A DNA stretch of 64,000 nucleotides from Ignavibacterium sp. (GTDB taxonomy: Bacteria > Bacteroidota > Ignavibacteria > Ignavibacteriales > Ignavibacteriaceae). Positions 27,825 through 41,417 of this stretch are shown here, piece after piece. A model generated the notes under the pieces. That model saw nothing but the letters and a program-made list of their open reading frames with translations, did not search any database and had not been told where the DNA came from. The DNA is taken from NCBI GenBank assembly GCA_032027145.1, contig JAVSMP010000001.1:2051116-2115115 (forward strand). Reading direction: 5' to 3'. A program made the position numbers and the translations under genes. How positions within the stretch are numbered: position 1 is the first letter of the stretch; the number at the start of each line of letters is the position of its first letter.

Positions 27825-28054
27825 ACATTGAACACTGATTAGCTAATTGAAAATTAAAAATAAGAATAGATAAGAGTTAGAAATAAAGTAGAAATCATTA
27901 AGTGTAATTTAAAGATCAAAAGTACAACAAAACCGAAAAAAGAACTATGTTAAATTAAAAGAATTATTTTTTTCAAATTATTAAAATATTATCTATTAAT
28001 ACTTTAATAAAAATTATTTAGTTAATTTTCGTAAACAATAAAATGGAGTTAAAA

Positions 28055-29245
28055 ATGAAAAACCTTTTTTTTAAAAGCATTTTTTCTTTATTTGCCCTTA
28101 CTTTGTTTATTAGTATTCCTGGTTATGCACAACTTGGACAATGGAACGGATCTCAGACAATCTACAATTTCATTTATCGAATGGGACCAGTCGGGATTAA
28201 CAATGTTAAACCAATTGAGATGCTTGAAGTCGATGGTAGAATTCGGCTTTCTGATTCACACGAGGACCCCAAGCCTGGGACTATTCGTTTTTACTCAGCT
28301 AATTCTGATTTTGAAGGATACAATGGCAGTAGCTGGAAGTCTATGACTTCTAAATGGACTTTATCGGGTAACAATATTATTAATAATAATAGTGGATACG
28401 TTCAATTAGGATTGACAAGTAAGCTTGGAATTGGAAAGACACCAAATTCTAAATTGGAGATTTATACTGAGAATGCTGCTAATAGTTGGACAGAAGGGTT
28501 GCAGCTTACTTCAAAATACTATAGTGAATCTACCCCCAGTAATTATGAGACTTATATGATTCAGCGTATGGACGGATTTTATATTAAATCTCACGGGGGT
28601 TATAATTTTATGAGTGGTGATGGTAATACAAATTTTGTGCGTATCAGCAATACAGGAAATGTTGGAGTTGGTATTGCAAATCCTACTCAGAAACTTCACT
28701 TGAACGGAAAGATTTTTATTGAATATACAGGGATTGCAGATGATATTTTTAAGATTAGTGAATACAATGAATTAGGAATAAAAGAAAATGGCCCATCAAA
28801 ACAAGGATATTTAGCCCTATATAACAAAGATCTTGAAATTGTGCCTCCTGTTTTATCAAAAAACTTAGTGTTAAATGCAGGCGGGACATCTTATATACTA
28901 GGTGGGTTGGCACTGGGGAAAACAACGATCAGTTCAGGATATAAGTTTGATGTAAACGGTAAGATCAGAGCAAATGAAATAGTTGTAAACTCAACAGGTG
29001 CTGATTTTGTTTTTGAAGCTGATTACAATTTAAAATCTTTGGAAGAGGTTGAATATTACATAAAAGAAAATAAACATCTTCCCGGTATTCCATCAGCAAA
29101 AGAAGTTGAAGAGAACGGAGTTAGTCTTGGAGAAATGCAGACAAAACTGCTGCAGAAGATTGAGGAGCTAACGTTGTATGTGATAGAATTGAAAAAGGAG
29201 AATGACATTCTTAATACAAAAGTCAATGGATTAGATAAAAGGTAA
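28055..29245 (+). CDS. Secreted tail-fibre-like protein with C-terminal coiled coil
   Basis: A 396-residue exported protein starting at ATG 28055 (ribosome site TGGAG six bases upstream; an in-frame ATG at 28043 overlaps that site). Signal peptide 1-22. The middle repeats a tail-fibre-like theme (VGIGNVKPIEMLEVDGRIR-like segments and GNVGVGIANPTQKLHLNGK). The C-terminal 90 residues contain KHLPGIPSAKEVEENGVSLGEMQTK-type sequence and a coiled coil, a module common in Bacteroidota next to RHS genes and related to intramolecular-chaperone tails. It ends 50 bp before the large rhs gene and is probably co-transcribed. Precise function is unknown; surface display or fibre trimerisation is likely. 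Confidence 0.78.
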   Translation: MKNLFFKSIFSLFALTLFISIPGYAQLGQWNGSQTIYNFIYRMGPVGINNVKPIEMLEVDGRIRLSDSHEDPKPGTIRFYSANSDFEGYNGSSWKSMTSKWTLSGNNIINNNSGYVQLGLTSKLGIGKTPNSKLEIYTENAANSWTEGLQLTSKYYSESTPSNYETYMIQRMDGFYIKSHGGYNFMSGDGNTNFVRISNTGNVGVGIANPTQKLHLNGKIFIEYTGIADDIFKISEYNELGIKENGPSKQGYLALYNKDLEIVPPVLSKNLVLNAGGTSYILGGLALGKTTISSGYKFDVNGKIRANEIVVNSTGADFVFEADYNLKSLEEVEYYIKENKHLPGIPSAKEVEENGVSLGEMQTKLLQKIEELTLYVIELKKENDILNTKVNGLDKR

Positions 29246-29295
29246 ATCATAAAATCATCGCATTATCGGTAAGAAAAAATAAAAAGGGTAATACT

Positions 29296-32200
29296 ATGAT
29301 GAAAAAATATATTTCTTTTTTAATACTAAGTGTTTTATCAATTGTTTTTTATCAAAATATATTTGCAGAAGGTCAATCATCAACAGCAAAACCAAAAGCT
29401 GCAAATACGCCTTCAATAGGCGGCGGTGATGGAGATTTTAGTAATGAAAGTCTTTTTACTGGTGATGTTGCTTTTTCTGTACCTATTACAAATATAGGTG
29501 GGATTAGTGTCGCATTAAATTATACTAGTAATGTGCATAAACTGGTAAGAGCTGATAATAAAGATGCGCAAGCAGGTTGGGTTGGGCTTGGCTGGTCTTT
29601 AAATCTTGGGAGTATTGTTGCGGATATAAATGGGACAAGAGATGTTTCAGACGATAAATATTTTTTTGTAAGTGCTTCTGGATCTTCAGAAATGATTCTT
29701 ATTTCCGGAAATGATTTTATGTTAAAAGAATATCAGTATTGGAAAATTACTAGAAGCGTGGATGGTAATGGTAATTTGATTGGATGGACTATAATTCTAG
29801 ATGATGGTACTAAAATGAGATTTGGAAATTATAATAAAACAACAAACAACTTTCTCTTTGATACTACACTAACAAAGGCAACGCGTTTTATGCTTGGCTG
29901 GGATGGAGTTGTTTGCAATCCATTAAATAACAAATACAACTCTGCAAGCTTTATTGCTTATCAGTGGGACTTGTCGGATTTAGAAGATATTGCCGGCAAT
30001 CATACTACAATTTCATACCAGGGTGTTGCTGAGGTATTAAGCGCAAATTCACTCTCAACAACTCTAAAGTATACCCAGGAATCGCATCCTTTAAAGATTA
30101 CTGATTGGACTAACAGAAGTGTTGAATTTGTTCTAGGTAATCTTACGACTGCAGAGTACGTTACACCTCCTGATAAAATTATCCAACGTCTGTTTGAACG
30201 AAAGTATTTGAATAAGATCCTGATAAAAGACGCTACTAATTCGATAATACAGCAGACTGTTTTTGATTATTCAGTACTGGATATTTTTAATCTGTCAGCT
30301 TCAAAAAGATATCTAACATCAATTACTGTTCAGGATGCAAATATTAATTCACTTACTCCAACAAACTTTAGTTATTATACAACAAGCGGAAGCTTAGGCG
30401 AAAATCCCGGTGCATTAAAATCAATAACCTATCCTGATGGCGGCAAGGTTGAATATACTTATGCTTATCATACACTTAGTAACGTTGAACTTAATTTTAG
30501 TCAGATTTACACAACAAATGAACCCATTGTTGACCTATCTTTATTACGAACTCTAATGTCTGGATCGGATTTCTATGTAATAAAAAGAGCTGACAACAAA
30601 CTTGAAGTCTATAGATGGGGAACAATAGGATGGTTTGTTGATAGTAATTTTCCAATTTCTACTTCAGTTTCAAATTTTTGGGTACGAAATGATTACATTG
30701 TTGCTTATATGGGAAGTAATACATTAAAAATTGCAAAAAGAAAAAATGATGGATGGACTGTCTCAACTATAACATTAAGTAACAGTAGAGATCCTGGTAG
30801 TATGAAAGTAATCGCTGTATCAAGCAATTTTTTCTTGGTTGCACATAATCTGGAAAAGTATAATTATAACACACAAGAGCATAAATGTAGAAGGAGAGAA
30901 AATCTTTCTGTTATACGATTAGATGATGCTACATGGAGCAGTTATTCCTTGGGTGATTTTGATCTTGGAAGACATGATATTGATTGGGACATTCATATTG
31001 AAGCTGCATCTGGTATTGATTTTTTTGCAATTAGATATTCCGATAATCCTGACAGCGATCAAAGATCTAGATGCAGGTTATATGTAAAAGATGGATTGAG
31101 CTGGTCAGAAAAATTCAGTTTTTATCCGGATGACATTACACCGTCAGATTTCCGACTTTATGCAGGACCTAATTATTTTATTGCTCATGCATATATAGGT
31201 CACTTAATTAATTGGGTATTTTATCCCCCCAATATTAAAGTTTTTTCTTGGCCGTTTACTTCTGCTAATGATTTTAAAAAGCGTGATATTTTTACCGACG
31301 ATATTTATACTCATTCAAATTTTTTTGTTACAAAGAAGGATGATGAAAGTTCTTCCTCTATTTTTATTCACAGTTTTAATAATGATGGTTCTAATTATCC
31401 TTATACAGTTACTAATATTGAAAATGTATTAACAGGTTCATTTTATAATAGTAGATTAGCTCTTGGGAAAGATTATGTTTGTGTTGGCTGGATAGAGGGA
31501 TCGAGTCCTTATAGCGGAAAATTGGGAGTCGTAAAAAATGTTGATGGTTTGTGGTCAACTGGATCATTAATTGAAACTATAAGTGATATGCAATATGATA
31601 GTTACGTTACTCCTGTAAACAATGGAATGACACTTTTTGCAGAGTGGTATTCGCCTTTTGATTATCATAGTGTAAGAACATATAAAGCGCAAAATAACAA
31701 CTGGATATTCATTAGCGAACTTGATAATGTTTCACTTGGAAGTGGAAATGCTTCTTTTACTCAACCTGGTTTTCAACTTTTAGGAGATATTATTCAGCCA
31801 GGAACTGCAGACGATATTGTCTCTCATAGTTTTATGGAAGGAAACACCCAGGGTGGAGACGCTTTGTTTTTAGGCAATCCCGCTGATTATCCTGTTTCAA
31901 CTAAAACTATAACTGATGGAATGGGTAACAGCTACCAGACAATTTATACATTTGAAAATGGTGTCTATGATCACGAAATTAATTTTGCAAAATATAACAA
32001 AGTTACTGTAGAACTCCCACAGCAAGATAGCGGAAAAACTATTACTTATTTTTATAACCATTTAGGTCCTGGTCAGGCAGAAGAGTTTGTCTATTCTCTT
32101 AACTATAAAGAACTGGATGGGCTGCCATATAAAATAAAGGTTTATAACTCAGCAATTAATGAAATTGCAACAACAACGAATTACTGGGCTGCTTTTGATA

Positions 32201-35200
32201 TTGATGCAGCTAATGGAGTTTATCATAAAAGACTAACTAAATCTGTAAATATCAACGACGGAATAACAAGTACTGTTGAGTACGAATATAACAACACAAA
32301 TGGACAGATAAAGAAAATTACCGAACCTGCTAAAGTCGCTTCTGATCTTTACGGTTTACGGGACAGAGTAACTGAAATTACATATGCTTACGAGCAGTAT
32401 ACTGCTATGCAAAATTTGAATATGGTATCACAGATATATGAAAAGAAAACAATATCAAAAGGAAGCAGCAGTAATACTGTAGCAGTTCTTGCTGATGGAC
32501 CCGAAATAACCGATTACAACCAATTTAGTGTACTTTATAATCAAACCGTTACCTATGAAGCTATAGTTTCAGGTGGTTATTTTTGTGTTGGCACAACTCA
32601 AGGCGGAGATGATATCATCTCTAAAAAATATTCTGACGCAAGCGGGTCGTTTCACGCAAATACCGGAATAACATATTATCTAACCGCACATACATACCCT
32701 TGTTCTCCTCCGCCGCATCCTTGTGAAGCTTGGGTTATTGGTCGGGTCACATATCATCAATCGAACGATCCAGATGAGGTGATTATTTCTCAGGAGCGTA
32801 CAGAATTCGACCCAAATAACAATTACGTATCATTTAGGAATTCAGTTTACAATGGCACAAATTGGATTGTAACAAATGCTATTACTGGACGTAATGATAA
32901 TGGAAATGTAACCGAAAGCTATAATGTGGACAATGTTTATTCATCCACAAAATATGGATATGATAATGTTCTTCCAATTGCACAGGTATCAAACTCAAAA
33001 GACGGTGAATCCGGTTATACGGGTCTGGAAAGCGGGTGGCAGGATTGGGAAACCGGCGGCAGCACAATTGTAAGCAATTTAAAACATACAGGGATTTTTA
33101 GTGCTTATTCGCAAAACAATTATGGACCTACCAAGAATTTTTATTGTGCCAATGGCGTAGATAAAATTAAATCTTACATACTTGAAGCTTGGGTAAGAAG
33201 AACAAGCGGAACCGGTAAAATTACGATTGAACTTCGCGATGCTAATAATAATGTATTATCAATTGTATCACAAGATATTACAGGCGGTACGGACTGGCAA
33301 CTTGTTTCACTTCCTATTACTCCACAGCAAATGACGAATCTTCCTTCCAATGGTTATTTGCGAGTATGGTGCGGATTTCCTAACTCAACTTCTAATTTCG
33401 GCTACGTTGACGATGTAAGATTTTATCCCGCTGATGCAATGATGACAACTTATACTTACGATCCTCTTACTCTGCAAGTTACAAGCGGAACAGATGAAAA
33501 CAACGTAACTACTTTTTATGAATATGACAGCTTTGGTCGTTTGACTCAGACAAAAAATGATGACAGTGATGTATTATCACAGACAACATATTATATATCA
33601 AGAGAACATAACGCCGGTAATTTCAATCCAAACGATCCTAATTATATCAGAACTTCGGCTTATCCAGATGGAATTGGTTCTACACCTATTGTTACAACTA
33701 ACTTTACTGATGGTCTCGGACGAACTTTACAGCAACATTCCCAGGACGGAAGTAATGATATTATCTCAGCAGTAAGCTACGACAATGCAGGACGAATAAA
33801 TAAAACTTATAATCCTTATTCTCTCAGCAATCCAAGTCATAACTACGATCCAAATTATTCATCGGGTTCATCGGGTTATATTGAAACGCAATATTATTCC
33901 GATCCGCTTGGAAGAGTACAATGGAGAATTCCACAGGGTTCAAACCCATCAACACCGAATAAAAATATCGAGAGTGTTTACGGCAATGCAACGCTTAGCG
34001 GAGTTTCCTGCTATACCAACGATATCAAACAGAAGCCAGCAACTAACAGTGTTAACTGGATTACTTCGAGGAGTTACAGGGATAGGTTAGGCAACGTTGT
34101 TAAATCTTCTGTGCTTGATGGATCCTCCGAAATACAAACCTCCACAACACTTTACAATATGCTTGGGCTTCCTGTACAGGTTACTGACCCGAAAGGAATG
34201 CTGCAGAATTTTACTTATGATTTTCTCGGGCGTTTGAAAGTAAAAACAACTCCTGATGCAGGAACTTCTAAGTACATTTACGACATAGCCGGACGACTTA
34301 GATTTATGCTCGATGTTGACGGCGATGCTGCAAATCCCGATAACATCTTGTATTGGAAGTATGATACATTTGGGCGCGTAACTGAAAAAGGTTATATCGT
34401 GATGAACTGGAATGAAACATTATTGCAGGATGAAGCAAATACAGATCCTGATTACCCAACAACTCCCGATACCTGGCGTAAAAAATTTACTTACGATACA
34501 GATGCAACGTCGCAATATCTAAAAGGCAGATTATATAAAGTAGAAACCAACAACGATAATAATACAGATGTGGAAACTCAGGAAACTTTTGCTTATAATA
34601 AATACGGATTTATTACTGCAAAGAATTTAACCGTTATGGAAGTAAGTACGCAGATGCAATCTACGCTTTATGATTATGATAATCTTGGAAGAGTTACAAA
34701 GATAACCTATCCTTCCCGTCCAGGTAATTTAACTTTGCAGAATGAAACCATCTCAGGCACAACCCCGACGCAGTATGAAGCAAATAATAATATAGATGCA
34801 GGACCTGATGTAACAATAAACTCCGGAGCCAGCGCAACATTTAAAGCCGGAACTAGCATACATCTTAAGCCCGGGTTTACGGCAAGTAACGGAAGCAACT
34901 TTAGGGCTTATACAGGTACATTCACAGACGGAGGAACTCCTACAGAAGTTGTTTACTCTTACAACCAGCGCGGACAAATTTCCGGCGTAGGTACAACCAC
35001 TAACCCGACTTTTTATGCTTCATACACTTATAAGCCATCGGGACAAATAGAAACTGAAACTCTTAACAACGGGCAGAAAGTAGTGCAGGCAACTTACGAC
35101 GTTAAAAACCGTCCCACACAGATTTCATCTCCTCTGTTTACCGAATCGCTTACTTACGAAACAGGCGGTTACGGCGGAGTGGGATATTATCACGGCAATA

Positions 35201-36966
35201 TTGCGTCTGCAAGTTTTTCTTATTACTCCGGCGGACCTGCTGCTTACCAAACTCTGTACCAGTACGATAACCTTGGACGGTTGAAGATAGCAGATAACAA
35301 TATTACTGCACTAAACCCTTATGATATTTCCAACATCAGTTACGATCTCAATGGAAATATTATAAGCATAAACAGAGGCGGTACGAATTACACTTACAAT
35401 TATTATACTGGTACAAACAAACTCAAGAATACCGGGGGAAGTAATAACGATTACGAGTATGATTTAAATGGTAATATAAAAAAGTCATTACCGAAAGGCT
35501 TAGATCCTTTAGTTTATGACCCATTTACACAGATGACAAAAAGCATAACTGTTACCAGAACTCCTAACAAGATGATGTCATTTCAGTATTCTGCCGACAA
35601 TGAACGTATACTGAAAAATGAAAAACAAGGAACGACGAATAATTTGAATCTTTATATCCGTGGAGCTAGCGAGTATCCTGTAATAGAAAAAATAAACACA
35701 AACAATACTCTTACTGACAAAGTTTACATCTACGGACCAACTGGTTTGATTGCATTTAAAGATGCAACGGCAACTTACTTTGTAATTAAAGACCATCTCG
35801 GCTCCACAAGAGTGCTTTTTAGAAGTACTGGAACTCAATACGCAACTTACGATTACTCACCATTTGGCAGCTTAATGAGAGCAACGATAAACGGCGATGT
35901 AGTTTATAAATTTACCGGACAGGAGTACGACAGCGAGTTTGGCTTATACAACTTTAGAGCAAGATTATATGATGATGAGCTTGGAATTTTTTATGCGGTT
36001 GACCCAAGCGGACAGAATTTTTCTCCATTCAGTTATGCAGGCAATAACCCTGTTATCAGGGTAGATAGAGATGGCCGAATTTGGTGGATACCGCTTTTAA
36101 TTGGTTTCTCAACTGGGTATTTGTCACATGCTTTAACTTATGATGACTGGGGTTGGGGAGCAATTGGTCAAGGACTTATTTCAGGGTCAATGTCGTTTGT
36201 TGGTTGGGGCGTTACTTCAGCACTTTCGCCATACTTTAGTTCAACATTGGGACTATCGCAAGGACTCTCGACAACTCTCGCCGGTGGTTTATCCGGCGGA
36301 ATAACAAGTTCACTCTTCACTCCTTGGGTAGGTGGAAACTTTGGGACTAATTTCCTATCTGGATTTGTAGGTGGTGCTTTAGGAGGAGCTGCTCAGTTGG
36401 GGGCATCTTCATTGTCAATTTCATCGGACATTCAATTTGGATTGAGGGTCGTGGGCGGTGGTATTTCCGGTGGGTTAACATCGTCTGTTTTTGGTGGTAC
36501 ATTTATGCAGGGTTTTGCAGGTGGGGCTATGGGTGCTGCAATGTCTGGCGTTGCAGCTGAAATTATTGATGAAGTCTACTCGGGTAAAATGACTATTGAA
36601 GAAGCCAAGAAAATTCTGGGTATTACAGATGAGGAATGGGCTGCCCTTGAATATGCTAATGGTGAATATCCAGAAGGTACTTATCCAGAGTTAACTAGAG
36701 AAATTGGCACTGAGGAATTATGGGCAAAACTACAACAATTACAGCAAAATGAAATGATAGGTCCACGAACAACATCTCAATCTTTGGGCAATTTTCAACT
36801 CGGGGTTGAAACATTGCGTTTTGGAGGTGATTTACATGTGCGATATCAAAGTGGAACAATAAGTTTTCATCGTGATCTTATTAGTATTGTTAGAAATCCA
36901 ATTCTTCATCTGTGGGATGATTATAAGCATCCTTATTCTGTACCCGCAATAATCAGGGGAAGATAA
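29296..36966 (+). CDS. RHS-repeat protein with polymorphic C-terminal toxin-like domain
   Basis: A 2556-residue exported RHS protein. Signal peptide 1-24, then an SpvB-like start (GGDGDFSNESLFTGDVAFSV). Residues about 400-850 resemble propeller blades, a carbohydrate-binding-like module lies near 1235-1380, and RHS/YD repeats of the YDxxGR type fill about 1385-2100. The core ends with DHLGSTRVLFRS, YDYSPFGSL, FTGQEYDSE and NPVIRVDRDGR (about 2250-2262), where RHS proteins switch to a variable C-terminal domain. That domain (about 294 residues) has a long glycine-rich hydrophobic part (2270-2420), then a charged tail with FHRDLISIVRNPILHLWDD. A beta-propeller gene follows after 26 bp. No known nuclease, deaminase or ADP-ribosyltransferase motif was seen in the C-terminal domain. 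Confidence 0.92.
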   Translation: MMKKYISFLILSVLSIVFYQNIFAEGQSSTAKPKAANTPSIGGGDGDFSNESLFTGDVAFSVPITNIGGISVALNYTSNVHKLVRADNKDAQAGWVGLGWSLNLGSIVADINGTRDVSDDKYFFVSASGSSEMILISGNDFMLKEYQYWKITRSVDGNGNLIGWTIILDDGTKMRFGNYNKTTNNFLFDTTLTKATRFMLGWDGVVCNPLNNKYNSASFIAYQWDLSDLEDIAGNHTTISYQGVAEVLSANSLSTTLKYTQESHPLKITDWTNRSVEFVLGNLTTAEYVTPPDKIIQRLFERKYLNKILIKDATNSIIQQTVFDYSVLDIFNLSASKRYLTSITVQDANINSLTPTNFSYYTTSGSLGENPGALKSITYPDGGKVEYTYAYHTLSNVELNFSQIYTTNEPIVDLSLLRTLMSGSDFYVIKRADNKLEVYRWGTIGWFVDSNFPISTSVSNFWVRNDYIVAYMGSNTLKIAKRKNDGWTVSTITLSNSRDPGSMKVIAVSSNFFLVAHNLEKYNYNTQEHKCRRRENLSVIRLDDATWSSYSLGDFDLGRHDIDWDIHIEAASGIDFFAIRYSDNPDSDQRSRCRLYVKDGLSWSEKFSFYPDDITPSDFRLYAGPNYFIAHAYIGHLINWVFYPPNIKVFSWPFTSANDFKKRDIFTDDIYTHSNFFVTKKDDESSSSIFIHSFNNDGSNYPYTVTNIENVLTGSFYNSRLALGKDYVCVGWIEGSSPYSGKLGVVKNVDGLWSTGSLIETISDMQYDSYVTPVNNGMTLFAEWYSPFDYHSVRTYKAQNNNWIFISELDNVSLGSGNASFTQPGFQLLGDIIQPGTADDIVSHSFMEGNTQGGDALFLGNPADYPVSTKTITDGMGNSYQTIYTFENGVYDHEINFAKYNKVTVELPQQDSGKTITYFYNHLGPGQAEEFVYSLNYKELDGLPYKIKVYNSAINEIATTTNYWAAFDIDAANGVYHKRLTKSVNINDGITSTVEYEYNNTNGQIKKITEPAKVASDLYGLRDRVTEITYAYEQYTAMQNLNMVSQIYEKKTISKGSSSNTVAVLADGPEITDYNQFSVLYNQTVTYEAIVSGGYFCVGTTQGGDDIISKKYSDASGSFHANTGITYYLTAHTYPCSPPPHPCEAWVIGRVTYHQSNDPDEVIISQERTEFDPNNNYVSFRNSVYNGTNWIVTNAITGRNDNGNVTESYNVDNVYSSTKYGYDNVLPIAQVSNSKDGESGYTGLESGWQDWETGGSTIVSNLKHTGIFSAYSQNNYGPTKNFYCANGVDKIKSYILEAWVRRTSGTGKITIELRDANNNVLSIVSQDITGGTDWQLVSLPITPQQMTNLPSNGYLRVWCGFPNSTSNFGYVDDVRFYPADAMMTTYTYDPLTLQVTSGTDENNVTTFYEYDSFGRLTQTKNDDSDVLSQTTYYISREHNAGNFNPNDPNYIRTSAYPDGIGSTPIVTTNFTDGLGRTLQQHSQDGSNDIISAVSYDNAGRINKTYNPYSLSNPSHNYDPNYSSGSSGYIETQYYSDPLGRVQWRIPQGSNPSTPNKNIESVYGNATLSGVSCYTNDIKQKPATNSVNWITSRSYRDRLGNVVKSSVLDGSSEIQTSTTLYNMLGLPVQVTDPKGMLQNFTYDFLGRLKVKTTPDAGTSKYIYDIAGRLRFMLDVDGDAANPDNILYWKYDTFGRVTEKGYIVMNWNETLLQDEANTDPDYPTTPDTWRKKFTYDTDATSQYLKGRLYKVETNNDNNTDVETQETFAYNKYGFITAKNLTVMEVSTQMQSTLYDYDNLGRVTKITYPSRPGNLTLQNETISGTTPTQYEANNNIDAGPDVTINSGASATFKAGTSIHLKPGFTASNGSNFRAYTGTFTDGGTPTEVVYSYNQRGQISGVGTTTNPTFYASYTYKPSGQIETETLNNGQKVVQATYDVKNRPTQISSPLFTESLTYETGGYGGVGYYHGNIASASFSYYSGGPAAYQTLYQYDNLGRLKIADNNITALNPYDISNISYDLNGNIISINRGGTNYTYNYYTGTNKLKNTGGSNNDYEYDLNGNIKKSLPKGLDPLVYDPFTQMTKSITVTRTPNKMMSFQYSADNERILKNEKQGTTNNLNLYIRGASEYPVIEKINTNNTLTDKVYIYGPTGLIAFKDATATYFVIKDHLGSTRVLFRSTGTQYATYDYSPFGSLMRATINGDVVYKFTGQEYDSEFGLYNFRARLYDDELGIFYAVDPSGQNFSPFSYAGNNPVIRVDRDGRIWWIPLLIGFSTGYLSHALTYDDWGWGAIGQGLISGSMSFVGWGVTSALSPYFSSTLGLSQGLSTTLAGGLSGGITSSLFTPWVGGNFGTNFLSGFVGGALGGAAQLGASSLSISSDIQFGLRVVGGGISGGLTSSVFGGTFMQGFAGGAMGAAMSGVAAEIIDEVYSGKMTIEEAKKILGITDEEWAALEYANGEYPEGTYPELTREIGTEELWAKLQQLQQNEMIGPRTTSQSLGNFQLGVETLRFGGDLHVRYQSGTISFHRDLISIVRNPILHLWDDYKHPYSVPAIIRGR
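35518..35556 (+). repeat. 39-bp exact repeat, RHS core copy 1
   Basis: Bases from GACCCATTTACACAGATGAC onward are identical to 38102-38140. It encodes DPFTQMTKSITVT in both copies and lies near the start of the region shared by the full rhs gene and the orphan cassette. It is a likely crossover point for C-terminal domain exchange (inference). Confidence 0.9.
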
Positions 36967-36992
36967 AAAATGCATAATAGTAAAGGACTGTA

Positions 36993-38039
36993 ATGTCTAA
37001 CTCTATAAAATTGATTCTATTTTTTTTCTTATTCCAAATAGTAGGTTCGTCACAAGATGTTTGGAATACTAAAAACAATAATATGAATAACATAAGGTCT
37101 CTTGGCTTCACACCTGAATTTGTGGTTGGGGTTTGTGACTGCGGAGGAATAGGAACAGTCGTAAAGACATGGTCATTATCAGATGGGGAAGCAGATTCGC
37201 TTTTTCGAGCTCGGATACAAGAAATATGCATAAGCAATAACGGAAACTACCTAGCAATAAGATCATTCAAAGATAGTATAATGCTACAGACTTTTTTCAT
37301 AGAAGGCAAAAAATGGTTATGGCAATACACAGGATCACATTATAATTCTATCGCATTCTCTGAGGATGATGAATATTTAATTGCGATAAATGAAAATGCT
37401 ATTGAAGAATTTGAAGTGCAGTCAGGAGATAAAAATATATTGAAAACTCCTCTTGAGGATAAACTCTCGGATTATGCTGAAAGTAAAAAAAGAGTTCTGA
37501 GACAAAAACTCAGTCCTGATGGTAAATATATGATAATATGGAATGACAAGATAAATTATGAGTGGGGTATTTCTTTTCTATTTTTATTTAGTGCTTCCCC
37601 TAATCCAAACATTGCTGTATGGGATATTTTAGAAAATAAACTTATATCAGAGATTCAGAAGCCATTATCAAAGATTGTTTCGGTTGCTTTTTCTCCCGAT
37701 GGAAAAAAAGTGTTCCTTGGTTGTGAGGATAAAAAAATTAGAGTATGGTCTCTACTTGCAAATAAAATCATCAAAGATTTTGAAGGGGATCCATCTTACA
37801 TAGATGTTTCAAACAGAAATAACCTGCTTGGAATTGGTGGAGATCATCTACGCATTTTAAATTCTTTGACGTTTACACTAATAAAGGATTTTGGAAAGGT
37901 TGGTGATAAAGTTGGAAGACTTAGCGAATGGAGTTTTAGCAGCGATGGTAAGTATTTCGCTCTTGAGGTAGAAGGCATTCTTTATCTTCATGAAACTAAT
38001 ACCTGGGAAGTACTATGGAGTATCCCTACTTGTCCCTGA
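36993..38039 (+). CDS. Exported beta-propeller (WD40-like) protein, candidate immunity partner 1
   Basis: A 348-residue protein with a good ribosome site (AAAGGA) and signal peptide MSNSIKLILFFFLFQIVGSSQ. The mature part consists of WD40-like blades, for example VAFSPDGKKVFLGCEDKKI followed by RVWSL, and INV-type strands ending in TWEVLWS. It starts 26 bp after the rhs gene, the position normally held by the immunity gene of an RHS toxin. A second, clearly paralogous protein at 39556 follows the orphan rhs cassette in the same way. The export signal suggests that it acts in the periplasm or at the inner membrane. Immunity or chaperone function is inferred from position only; WD40-like propellers are general binding scaffolds. 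Confidence 0.78.
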   Translation: MSNSIKLILFFFLFQIVGSSQDVWNTKNNNMNNIRSLGFTPEFVVGVCDCGGIGTVVKTWSLSDGEADSLFRARIQEICISNNGNYLAIRSFKDSIMLQTFFIEGKKWLWQYTGSHYNSIAFSEDDEYLIAINENAIEEFEVQSGDKNILKTPLEDKLSDYAESKKRVLRQKLSPDGKYMIIWNDKINYEWGISFLFLFSASPNPNIAVWDILENKLISEIQKPLSKIVSVAFSPDGKKVFLGCEDKKIRVWSLLANKIIKDFEGDPSYIDVSNRNNLLGIGGDHLRILNSLTFTLIKDFGKVGDKVGRLSEWSFSSDGKYFALEVEGILYLHETNTWEVLWSIPTCP

Positions 38040-39526
38040 TTGCAGGTCCAAACAGAAATATTACTTCTTCATTTCATAAAGAATTAAACCCGATAGTTTA
38101 CGACCCATTTACACAGATGACAAAAAGCATAACTGTTACCGGTTCACCGACAAAAGCAATGACATTTAACTACTCTGCAGATAATGAAAGAGTATTAAAA
38201 ACGGAAAGTTATGGCACTACGAAAAATTCCAATCTTTATATCAGAGGTAATAACAATTATCCAATTACGGAGAAGATTAATTTAAACTCAGTATTGAATG
38301 ATAAGATTTATATCTATGGACCGACAGGATTAATTGCATTCAAGGATGCAACGGCAACTTACTTTGTAATAAAAGACCATCTTGGTAATACAAGATTACT
38401 TTTTAGAAGTACCGGAACACAATACACAACTTATGATTACTCTCCGTTTGGTAGTTTAATGCGTTCATCAATAAGCGGAGATACAGATTATAGGTTTACT
38501 GGACAGGAATTTGACAGCGGAACTGCTCTGTATAACTTTAGAGCGAGACTTTATGATGATGAGCTTGGAATTTTTTACGCAGTTGATCCGGGTGGACAAA
38601 ACTTTTCGCCATTTTCTTATGCTGGTAATAACCCGGTAATATATGTAGATAAAGATGGGAGATTATTTTGGTTGATTCCCGCCATAGTTGGATTTGTTAC
38701 AGGATATGTAAGTCACGGTATAATCCAGCACGATTGGGGTTGGGGAGCGTTAGGTAGTGGTTTGCTTGGAGCTGTCTCATCTTTGGTTGGTTACCAAACT
38801 GCTGCTTGGGCTTCATCGCTTGGTCATAATATTGGTTTATCTCAAGGACTTAGTACTGTAATCTCCAGCGGTATAGGAGGAGGTACATCTGGGGCGTTTA
38901 GCAATTTATTACAAGGACAAAATGTTGGTCGTGGATTTTTAGCTGGTTCACTTGCAGGAACTCTGGGAGGAGCGTTTAGTCTTGGTGCTGGTAACCTTTC
39001 AACAACAGGACAATTTATAAGTAGAACAGTTTCTGGGGGATTTGTAGGAGGATTAGTAAGTGATGTAATGGGAGGTAGTTTTATTGGTGGTTTCGGAACT
39101 GGAGCACTTTCTTCAAGTGTTTCGTTCTGGGCAACAGAACTTACAAATTATGTTTACAAAGATGGCGGAAGCTTAGCAGAAAAAACTTATGGTTTAACTG
39201 AAAGTGAAAAAGAATTACTTAAGTATGGTTTGGAAGAATATAAGAAGGGTAGTGTAACTCCCGAACTTTTGCAGAAATTGCAGGAACTTCATGCTAAGCT
39301 TTATCCTCATGATAATTCAGCTACCGGTATTTTATCAAGATTAAGGGATTGGAGTGTAAATGATTTACGCTTCGATGAAATTCATATAATGACTGAAGCA
39401 GGAAACGTTAATTTTCACTACGACCATTTTAGTTTAGTAACAAATCCTTTTATGCACATTTTAGTTGATGAAGTAATAGTGAACCGAATAATTGGTGGAC
39501 AAGGTATATATACAGTCCCAAGATAA
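38015..39526 (+). CDS. Orphan RHS C-terminal cassette
   Basis: The frame encodes the last part of an RHS core plus a different C-terminal domain. Homology to the full RHS protein begins around codon 38050 (NRNITSS..., then LNPIVYDPFTQMTKS) and runs through YGPTGLIAFKDATATYF, DHLGNTRLLFRS and NPVIYVDKDGR. After that (from about 38665) the 288-residue C-terminal domain is diverged but still related: a glycine-rich hydrophobic part, then FHYDHFSLVTNPFMHILVDE. There is no signal peptide and no convincing ribosome site. ATG 38015 lies inside the preceding propeller gene and is probably not a real start. It looks like a silent donor cassette that could be recombined onto the full gene. Confidence 0.85.
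   Translation: MEYPYLSLIAGPNRNITSSFHKELNPIVYDPFTQMTKSITVTGSPTKAMTFNYSADNERVLKTESYGTTKNSNLYIRGNNNYPITEKINLNSVLNDKIYIYGPTGLIAFKDATATYFVIKDHLGNTRLLFRSTGTQYTTYDYSPFGSLMRSSISGDTDYRFTGQEFDSGTALYNFRARLYDDELGIFYAVDPGGQNFSPFSYAGNNPVIYVDKDGRLFWLIPAIVGFVTGYVSHGIIQHDWGWGALGSGLLGAVSSLVGYQTAAWASSLGHNIGLSQGLSTVISSGIGGGTSGAFSNLLQGQNVGRGFLAGSLAGTLGGAFSLGAGNLSTTGQFISRTVSGGFVGGLVSDVMGGSFIGGFGTGALSSSVSFWATELTNYVYKDGGSLAEKTYGLTESEKELLKYGLEEYKKGSVTPELLQKLQELHAKLYPHDNSATGILSRLRDWSVNDLRFDEIHIMTEAGNVNFHYDHFSLVTNPFMHILVDEVIVNRIIGGQGIYTVPR
38102..38140 (+). repeat. 39-bp exact repeat, RHS core copy 2
   Basis: Identical to 35518-35556; the surrounding core sequence is homologous but diverged. A crossover here would move the orphan C-terminal domain and its propeller gene onto the full-length rhs gene and delete about 2.6 kb. 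Confidence 0.9.
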
Positions 39527-39555
39527 ATGTTATATCTGAAAAATGGAGAACAATA

Positions 39556-40722
39556 ATGCTTTATGCTATATTTTTTATTTTGTTAATTATGGTTGGGGAT
39601 GTGTACGATGGATCTTTCGTAGGTCATTACCCAAGTGTAGGTAAAAATAAATTAACATCTAATGATACATCAATATACAACTCAGATTCATTAAGAGCAG
39701 ATATGAATTCTAATCATCTGAGTTTTTTACATATTCTGAATAAACGTTCAGAGATAATTGCAGAGCCCGTTTCAGATGATATCAAAGGAGGAACAATTTA
39801 TAGGTGGAACCTTTTTGACGGTAAACGTTCTATTTTGGCATATTTGGGAGATCGTGTTTGGATAGCCTATATGACGGTCAGCCATAATGAAGACTTCATA
39901 GTAGTCGCAACCTTAGATAATGATCCTACACGTTTAAAATATTTCTCAATTAAAGAAAAAAAGTGGTTATGGGAAATTCAAGATTTAGATCATTACTGGT
40001 GGTTAGGTTTTTCTGATAATGATAAGGAAATAATAGCTTTTGGGAATAATGCTGTGTATAGAGTTAACGCATATAACGGTGTTATATTAAGTAAAACTAA
40101 AGCTATACATAATGAATATTCTCTTAGTGTGCACAAAAGCACAGGTACTTTTATAAGCCCAACTGGTAAGTATTTGGTTATATGGCAAGTGCAAGAGACA
40201 TGGGCACTACTTGATTTATTCAGGAGATCTGCAAATAAAAATATTTCAGTTTGGGATATAGAAGAAGAAAAAATTGTAGCATCAATGTCATTGCCTGAAA
40301 AAGGAGTAAGAACTGCAACTTTTACTTCGGATGAGAAAAATGTTTTTCTTGGCTGTGGTGATGAGACTATAAAATTATGGTCATTAGAGAAAAACAAAAT
40401 AGTTAACGAAATTCCAGGGTTAGCTACTTATTTAGTGACAAGTAATAAACAAAATTTTTTAGCATCTGGAATTATGGAAGAAGATCGTCTTTCCAAAGTA
40501 AAAATATGGAAGTACCCTGAAATGACACTAATACATACTATAGAACCATATTCGAAAAACTATATCAATCGAGGGAGAATGCCAGTTAATTTTGATAAAA
40601 CTGGTAAATATTTCGGAGTTGAAAGAGATGGAAAACTCTATTTGTATGATACTTCAAATTGGGAAGTGTTATGGTCTTTTAATACAGATGTAAGTGACTC
40701 AAAACAAAACTCTGAGAAGTAA
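39556..40722 (+). CDS. Exported beta-propeller (WD40-like) protein, candidate immunity partner 2
   Basis: A 388-residue paralogue of the protein at 36993. The ribosome site GGAGAA lies five to six bases before ATG 39556; the N-terminus MLYAIFFILLIMVGDVYDG is a signal peptide or anchor. Shared blades include DEKNVFLGCGDETIKLWSLE and KNKIVNEI and the end NWEVLWSF, matching FLGCEDKKIRVWSL and TWEVLWS in the first copy. It starts 29 bp after the orphan rhs cassette. The matching order toxin-domain, propeller, toxin-domain, propeller supports a cognate relationship (inference). Its stop codon abuts the decayed third rhs fragment. Confidence 0.78.
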   Translation: MLYAIFFILLIMVGDVYDGSFVGHYPSVGKNKLTSNDTSIYNSDSLRADMNSNHLSFLHILNKRSEIIAEPVSDDIKGGTIYRWNLFDGKRSILAYLGDRVWIAYMTVSHNEDFIVVATLDNDPTRLKYFSIKEKKWLWEIQDLDHYWWLGFSDNDKEIIAFGNNAVYRVNAYNGVILSKTKAIHNEYSLSVHKSTGTFISPTGKYLVIWQVQETWALLDLFRRSANKNISVWDIEEEKIVASMSLPEKGVRTATFTSDEKNVFLGCGDETIKLWSLEKNKIVNEIPGLATYLVTSNKQNFLASGIMEEDRLSKVKIWKYPEMTLIHTIEPYSKNYINRGRMPVNFDKTGKYFGVERDGKLYLYDTSNWEVLWSFNTDVSDSKQNSEK

Positions 40723-41417
40723 CAAACAAGCTGCAGAACACAGACGGAAGCGGAAATGATTAGATATATGATGCTAATGGAAATATAACTACTTCTATAC
40801 CGAAAGGATTAAACCCGATAGTTTATGACCCGGTTAATAACAAAGCGAAAGTGTTTAACATTTTTGGAAACGGTTTGATTAGCAAAGTTGTAACAGGTGC
40901 TTATGATAATTTGTATTTAACAAATACAATACTTGAAGGCACGTACGAAGCACAGAACACTATCACTGCTGAAACAAATGTAATTGTAAACGGAACGGCA
41001 ACACTTAAAGCCGGAAACACAATAAGTCTTAAACCTGGTTTTCACGCAGCTTATGGAAATAATTTTACAGCAATGATTGAAGCAGTACCAAACACAGCAA
41101 AACGCTTTTACTATTTGAAAGACCACCTTGGCAGTATTAGAGTTGTAGTAAATGAATTGGGCGAGATAGTAAGCAGCGACGACTACGATCCTTGGGGAAT
41201 GATATTAAACGGAAGAAGTACTAACAGTGCTTACACAAATTCAAAGTATAAGTTTACCGCTAAAGAAAGAGACACAGAGACCGGCTACGACTACTTCGGT
41301 GCAAGGTATTACGACAGCAGGATTGGAAGATGGCTGCAGGTAGATCCGCTTGCAGAAAAATATTTTGGATGGAGTCCGTATAATTATACTTTAAATAATC
41401 CATTAAAAAAGATTTAA
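40723..41417 (+). pseudogene. Decayed third RHS fragment
   Basis: Directly after the second propeller gene the sequence translates as TNKLQNTDGSGND, a TAG stop (40761-40763), then IYDANGNITTSIPKGLNPIVYDP, collinear with the full RHS protein. It then enters another segment (TYEAQNTITAETNVIVNG with KPGFHAAYGNNF, a 3-coathanger-stack-like repeat also present in the full RHS protein near residues 1820-1860). The RHS core that follows is of a different subtype (DHLGSIRVVVNELGE, FTAKERDTETGYDYFGARYYD, WLQVDPLAEKYFGW). It stops at NNPLKKI, exactly where a toxin domain should begin. No C-terminal domain remains. Confidence 0.88.

Follow-up and report, generated by a model that had tools for sequence, protein, structure and literature searches.

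WD40 beta-propellers as putative exported immunity proteins of RHS toxin ends in an Ignavibacterium locus

RHS polymorphic toxins combine an RHS core with a variable C-terminal toxin end (CT) past the conserved core end and a partner gene directly downstream, and they include orphan cassettes as well as CTs that are exchanged jointly with their partners, as described in the parts of the 2012 survey by Zhang et al. considered here (PMC3482391). In the same parts of that survey, all but a few immunity proteins are cytoplasmic, and beta-propellers are not found among them (PMC3482391). Propeller-like immunity proteins that act in the periplasm against peptidoglycan enzymes are documented elsewhere, for instance Tsi1 of P. 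aeruginosa and X-Tfi XAC2610 of Xanthomonas (PMC3391265, PMC10933484; excerpts). Here, we describe an RHS array in a 64,000-nucleotide stretch of DNA from an uncultured Ignavibacterium sp. (contig JAVSMP010000001.1, positions 2,051,116 to 2,115,115, forward strand; hereafter the window). The array resembles the RHS polymorphic toxins in its core, variable ends, downstream partners, orphan cassette and joint exchange of CT and partner, and a WD40 propeller gene lies directly behind each of its two toxin ends, CT1 and CT2. We favour, with moderate confidence, the reading that these propellers are exported cognate immunity proteins guarding the envelope against their RHS toxin ends. The locus is ordinary as a system; its interest lies in the immunity fold and in the lineage-wide export of the partners.

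All genes of the array lie on the plus strand in the order RHS-CT1, propeller 1, core-CT2, propeller 2 and core fragment, and the array contains all three RHS cores that the source genome has at the threshold used. The TIGR03696 RHS core, which precedes the variable end where there is one, scores above its cut-off of 32.5 bits in each case. Signal peptides were called by rules (n-region charge, hydrophobic core and -3/-1 site) and not by a trained predictor of the SignalP type, and the hydrophobic maximum of the first 30 residues was compared with that of 5000 whole-protein shuffles. A slash marks a predicted cleavage site.

29296-36966, plus strand: full-length RHS protein of 2556 amino acids, ending in CT1 (TIGR03696, 60.2 bits; 3-coathanger domain; RHS repeats, PF05593)
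29296-29367, plus strand: predicted Sec signal peptide of the RHS protein, MMKKYISFLILSVLSIVFYQNIFA/EG (rule-based; 11 of 5000 shuffles match its hydrophobic maximum)
36028-36552, plus strand: CT1, RHS core end and glycine-rich pre-toxin module (22% Gly), common to CTs with other tails
36553-36963, plus strand: CT1 toxin tail with the conserved positions H..FH.D..S.V.NP..H...D (alignment)
36993-38039, plus strand: propeller 1, a WD40 beta-propeller that is putatively exported and confers immunity to CT1 (PF00400, AlphaFold, Foldseek)
36993-37052, plus strand: predicted signal peptide of propeller 1 (rule-based)
38015-39526, plus strand: orphan RHS core tip with CT2, 55% identical to the C-terminal part of the RHS protein (TIGR03696, 64.6 bits)
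38659, plus strand: exchange point at the RHS core end, where homology to the sister genome IGN3 ceases (blastn of the window against IGN3)
39131-39523, plus strand: CT2 toxin tail (alignment)
39556-40722, plus strand: propeller 2, a WD40 beta-propeller that is putatively targeted to the membrane and confers immunity to CT2 (33% identity to propeller 1, WD40 profiles)
39565-39597, plus strand: residues 4-14 of propeller 2, its hydrophobic N-terminal segment (lacking a charged n-region and a clear cleavage site)
40851-41417, plus strand: RHS core tip fragment without a toxin end, the last member of the array (TIGR03696, 63.3 bits; 3-coathanger domain)

A sequence-only reading of this region had described two paralogous propellers and considered that they might be immunity proteins for matching RHS domains. 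The paralogy is confirmed and a cognate partnership is supported: the two open reading frames (ORFs) are present at the coordinates given and encode WD40 paralogues with 33% identity over 308 residues, they alternate with toxin ends that are themselves homologous (43% identity between CT1 and CT2 over the whole ends), and they are swapped together with these ends between nearly identical strains. The nearest named record is the Ignavibacteriota metagenome-assembled genome IGN3 (CP053447), which matches the left flank at 99.7% and the right flank at 99.0% identity and carries the same CT1 and propeller 1 (98.6% identity between the propeller proteins). The homology continues through the second core and ends at position 38659, beyond which the window has CT2 and propeller 2, and IGN3 has a different CT with a lipobox protein behind it. 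The core end, where RHS cassettes are usually exchanged, is thus the point at which toxin end and partner have changed together. Since homologous toxin ends have homologous partners, and since both are swapped jointly in IGN3, the partners appear to track the toxin ends, and on this sequence evidence we regard an immunity function of the partners as highly probable. Propeller 1 and CT1 differ from their IGN3 counterparts by 7 and 9 bases, respectively, too few in a codon comparison for selection to be inferred. The IGN3 array also closes with a counterpart of the core tip fragment.

The site itself is a toxin slot of hypervariable content, flanked by genes for an acetyl-CoA synthetase and a TonB receptor. 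At the place corresponding to window positions 27825-41243, IGN3 (L008 and L050) has a longer array with seven RHS cores and an internal transposase-like gene, and this array is devoid of the N-terminal part of the RHS protein.

The assignment to the WD40 proteins is firmest for propeller 1, which scores 38.4 bits against PF00400 (cut-off 27); its AlphaFold model (pLDDT 66.9, pTM 0.67) retrieves WDR5-type propellers with Foldseek (best E 3.4e-15, TM about 0.5). Propeller 2 remains below the PF00400 cut-off with 20.4 bits and is assigned through its homology to propeller 1. At an E-value of 1e-14, relatives were detected in 4 of 391 genomes of the class, namely the source genome, IGN3 and two genomes of other genera, G207 (L088 7997-9265, minus strand) and G346 (L080 9814-11007). 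At 1e-10, 5 of the 80 family genomes gave matches, two of which are short generic WD40 matches. A search of 295 genomes of another class, in a set that lacks a positive control, gave no match. The 13 plasmid records that matched encode generic WD40 proteins with 22-30% identity.

The sequence-only reading also held that both propellers start with a hydrophobic export segment. For propeller 1, this is borne out by a full Sec signal. Its N-terminus, MSNSIKLILFFFLFQIVGSSQDVW, has an n-region with a net charge of +1 and a hydrophobic core beginning at residue 8, and it offers three acceptable cleavage sites (IVG/SS, VGS/SQ and GSS/QD), so that all three rule-based features of a Sec signal are present; 63 of 5000 shuffles equal its hydrophobic maximum. 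The IGN3 copy has the identical kind of start, and by its sequence propeller 1 is very probably exported. For propeller 2, only the hydrophobic core stands. This core, in MLYAIFFILLIMVGDVYDGSF, is stronger than that of propeller 1 (7 of 5000 shuffles), but the net charge of the n-region is 0 and no site passes the -3/-1 rule. The frame upstream of propeller 2 is open for 28 codons without any ATG, GTG or TTG. A standard cleaved signal peptide was rejected for propeller 2, as only one of the three features is present. Instead, its N-terminus is probably a membrane-targeting segment, which may act as a weak signal peptide or stay uncleaved as an anchor; such targeting is likely, albeit less so than the export of propeller 1. 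The orientation of membrane anchors follows the positive-inside rule. The uncharged start of propeller 2 and the two acidic residues directly behind its hydrophobic core favour, by this rule, an anchor with the N-terminus inside and the C-terminus outside, an arrangement that would still place the propeller outside of the cytoplasm. The propellers of G207 and G346 have clear signal peptides (IYG/QV and VAS/NL; 13 and 3 of 5000 shuffles, respectively). Thus, a hydrophobic start is present in all four distinct members of the propeller family found here, and the signal peptide is convincing in three of them.

To place the two partners in context, we surveyed 80 genomes of the family, in which 65 RHS cores were found in 15 genomes. 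After removal of cores that run off the contig (2), have ends shorter than 170 residues (15) or lack a gene in reach (3), 45 usable CT-partner pairs remained, the partner being the longest ORF of at least 60 amino acids that starts between 75 bases before and 150 bases after the stop codon. N-terminal export or membrane segments were called by our own hydropathy and lipobox rule, in which at least one lipobox call resembles an ordinary signal peptide (I00, SAMA/Q), and the background was a greedy choice of ORFs of at least 100 amino acids, which may contain spurious ORFs and further immunity genes. Such a segment is present in 35 of the 45 partners, compared with 61 of 166 background ORFs (Fisher p 1.2e-6). 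The 35 comprise 21 partners with a single segment, 6 with a lipobox and 8 with further membrane segments; the other 10 have none. The enrichment persists when four homologous members and one RHS ORF are removed (31 of 40, p 5e-6) and when only single-segment and lipobox calls are counted (24 of 40 partners versus 46 of 166 background ORFs, p 1.8e-4). Among the 48 CTs of the family, five groups of homologous full-length ends were recognised by BLAST (E 1e-4), and the downstream genes are homologous in four of them (T20/T23, T26/T27, T29/T49 and T58/T59) and not detectably so in the fifth (T07/T19).

Domain identities are in line with the export pattern. Pfam was run on 40 of the 48 CTs (omitting four with a homologue in the set, three without a partner and one before another RHS ORF), on 19 of the 45 partners and on both window propellers. 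The partners of a YkuD and an M15/VanY toxin end, both directed at the cell wall, bear signals, as do those of three M91-like ends (35.1, 25.1 and 19.8 bits; cut-off 25), and the partners of a weakly matching M13 end and of an Ntox44 end are exported, whereas the partner of a DUF4258 end is not. Conversely, Imm26 and Imm53 occur only among the non-exported partners (two of nine scanned, compared with none of ten exported ones). Toxin and immunity domains point the same way, in small numbers. The proteins that follow the YkuD and M15/VanY ends (L064:928-1497 and L060:5067-5663, both minus strand) carry signal peptides without Pfam domains and are candidate new immunity families for cell-wall toxins. 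A further toxin end without a Pfam match (L052:3008-3922, minus strand) has a Cys/His arrangement, DCKAF...HVGIGIG, that by eye resembles an NlpC/P60 or CHAP-like peptidase.

From exported propellers, a periplasmic or inner-membrane target of the toxins had been deduced in the sequence-only reading. The deduction is strengthened by the exported partners of cell-wall and protease toxins and by the non-exported Imm26 and Imm53, and weakened because export is the local default. Given an immunity role and the export calls, we consider an envelope target fairly likely. The further exclusion of DNA and RNA as targets was too strong, since the full-length RHS protein carries a Sec signal of its own, and an exported partner could shield the periplasm of the producer while the toxin leaves the cell, whatever the final target.

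This last point leads to an alternative that we consider unlikely, namely that export reflects the route and not the target. The partner would be exported since the toxin crosses the producer's own periplasm through Sec; the toxin could then act in the cytoplasm of a rival, with the propeller trapping it in the periplasm before entry. The Sec signal of the full-length RHS protein fits this route, and it means that the location of the partner is not a strict indicator of the target. Moreover, with 35 of 45 partners exported by default, the exported partner of a single pair shifts the odds only moderately. A precedent is provided by the TANFOR toxins of Bacteroidetes, of which about 87% have predicted Sec signals and which nevertheless end in nucleases, according to the part of the report considered (PMC7073777). 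However, the 10 partners without an export segment, among them the Imm26 and Imm53 types, imply that the route alone does not force export. Likewise, most cassettes of the family are core fragments without a signal, and yet their partners retain theirs; nearly all cores outside of the window are signal-less fragments or are cut by the stretch examined.

Together with the incomplete signal of propeller 2, several further observations weigh against the propellers being exported immunity proteins that protect the envelope. The CT-propeller pairing was seen in two cassettes and one nearly identical IGN3 copy. The toxin activity is not assignable: CT1 and CT2 have no Pfam match at 0.01 and no NCBIfam match beyond the core, sequence searches of the PDB with both ends gave only matches at chance level (best E 0.028), and the AlphaFold model of the CT1 tail is unusable (pLDDT 40.7). 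Finally, the two other relatives of the propellers stand without RHS: the G346 genome lacks RHS cores above threshold, and none occurs in the 20 kb read around the G207 propeller. These two relatives also speak for the view that the propellers are ordinary exported WD40 proteins, for instance in adhesion or as scaffolds, that were caught in the array. We judge this very improbable, because two paralogues occupy equal slots behind two paralogous CTs, IGN3 has another exported protein in the same slot, and immunity loci without toxins (polyimmunity loci) are known in general, as stated in the survey excerpts (PMC3482391). The G207 and G346 propellers may be orphaned immunity genes, or they may have another role. 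In G207, the signal-bearing relative, which is related to propeller 2, lies with three small genes of 201, 121 and 81 amino acids (L088 7997-10529) in what looks like an orphan immunity cluster; the signal-bearing relative in G346 stands alone amid unrelated genes (L080 9814-11007).

Relatives of the toxin ends are rare. GTDB contigs contain one locus, that of IGN3, and IMG/VR contains none. Matches were obtained in 2 of 294 class genomes and 5 of 80 family genomes, and those beyond the source genome and the IGN3 CT1 span only the core end and the glycine-rich part. Among 395 genomes of the phylum, the source genome alone gave convincing matches; three others (E 0.003-0.009) have internal stop codons. 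No relative was found in 345 genomes of another class, in a set without a positive control, and the CT1 tail matched no plasmid. PADLOC returned a single match (E 0.029). A regular expression for the H-D-P-H-D positions matched only CT1, CT2 and the IGN3 copy among the 48 CTs.

The hydrophobic, glycine-rich start of the toxin domains had been cited as agreeing with a periplasmic or membrane target. The stretch is indeed glycine-rich (22-23% Gly and nine GxxxG motifs across 110 residues of CT1 and CT2), but its hydropathy is low (mean Kyte-Doolittle 0.44-0.49), and no 19-residue window exceeds 1.6, so that a classical transmembrane helix is not present. Moreover, the first 100-150 residues of CT1 and CT2 behind the core have matches in T03, T07/T19 and T34, although these CTs end in other tails and have other partners, and the glycine content of this region does not differ between CTs with exported (mean 0.106, n = 35) and non-exported partners (0.105, n = 10; p = 0.52). 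The stretch is, as judged from these alignments, a modular pre-toxin module ahead of unrelated tails, and we no longer count it towards a particular target. Every partner in the long glycine-rich group (T03, T07, T19, T20, T23, T30 and T34) has an export segment; for T34, the gene called as the partner encodes 65 residues and has its start 144 bases downstream.

The same motifs suggest that the toxin itself might be membrane-active, with its GxxxG segment entering the inner membrane to form a pore or translocation piece, which the propeller would cap from the periplasmic side. The toxin end of EsxX, which depolarises membranes, contains a glycine-zipper motif (PMC12744356), and the RHS toxin Tse5 forms pores (PMC9637101), as far as the consulted parts of these reports go. 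However, the segment recurs in CTs whose tails and partners are unrelated (T03, T07/T19, T20/T23 and T34) and is thus unlikely to be what the partner recognises; nor does it have a classical transmembrane window. We therefore consider a membrane-active segment improbable.

Building on gene order, homology, export-type N-termini and CT-partner swapping, we infer toxicity, binding, localisation and an envelope target, and propose the following mechanism. As cognate immunity proteins of an RHS polymorphic-toxin locus, the propellers would be moved across the inner membrane, with a cleavable Sec signal in the case of propeller 1 and perhaps an N-terminal anchor in that of propeller 2. There, in the periplasm or on the face of the membrane, each would bind its toxin end. 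This binding would keep an incoming toxin, or the cell's own toxin taken out through Sec by the RHS shell, from damaging the envelope. CT2 and propeller 2 would form a spare cassette, which recombination at the core end could join to the full-length RHS protein. The core-CT2 ORF, whose start overlaps the end of propeller 1, has no N-terminal export segment, so that CT2, if made, would stay in the cytoplasm, beyond the help of an exported partner; this fits a toxin that is harmless in the cytoplasm, or a silent gene. Just upstream of the RHS gene, positions 28043-29245 encode a 400-amino-acid protein with a signal-like start and no Pfam domain, which is possibly a helper or surface partner of the RHS protein.

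If the proposed reading is true, a common protein-binding scaffold joins the toxin-neutralising folds, in a compartment with few immunity proteins in the 2012 survey, and the localisation of partners becomes an inexpensive guide to the site of action of uncharacterised RHS toxins. The export or membrane-type starts of 31 of the 40 non-redundant family partners would then indicate many undescribed envelope-targeting toxins. The broader proposition, that complete WD40 propellers serve as exported immunity proteins of RHS toxins and that the RHS arsenal of the Ignavibacteria is mostly aimed at the envelope with partners exported by default, is in our view evenly balanced.

How the locus relates to the described systems can be stated from those parts of the respective reports that were considered. 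In contrast to the RHS systems of the 2012 survey, the Ignavibacteria partners are mostly exported or membrane-bound, and two of them are WD40 propellers (PMC3482391). The RHS protein was rejected as an RHS effector of a type VI secretion system (T6SS), as the Pfam scan revealed no PAAR domain and the N-terminus is of the Sec type; the genome was not searched for a T6SS. The TANFOR toxins are likewise large and Sec-exported, with variable ends and a downstream immunity gene, but they have the TANFOR N-terminal domain, and the window protein, checked for TANFOR by Pfam and NCBIfam scans only, is an RHS protein (PMC7073777). PefE of the Proteus mirabilis pef operon is also a predicted bladed propeller at a competition locus; it differs in belonging to a T6SS operon and in a fold predicted by Phyre only, and is likened to the window WD40 proteins by description (PMC5714391). 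Functional counterparts are Tsi1, XAC2610 and the PliI lysozyme inhibitor, which are propeller-like, are located in the envelope and neutralise a toxin or enzyme (PMC3391265, PMC10933484). However, the propeller of Tsi1 is partial and fragmented, with DPP IV as its nearest match, and this group targets peptidoglycan enzymes, whereas the window propellers have WD40-type repeats and RHS delivery. Full-text searches of one literature collection returned no title or abstract in which a WD40 immunity protein is named for an RHS toxin. Thus, putatively exported WD40 propellers in an RHS cassette of this Ignavibacteria family look new, within an RHS polymorphic-toxin system that is already known.

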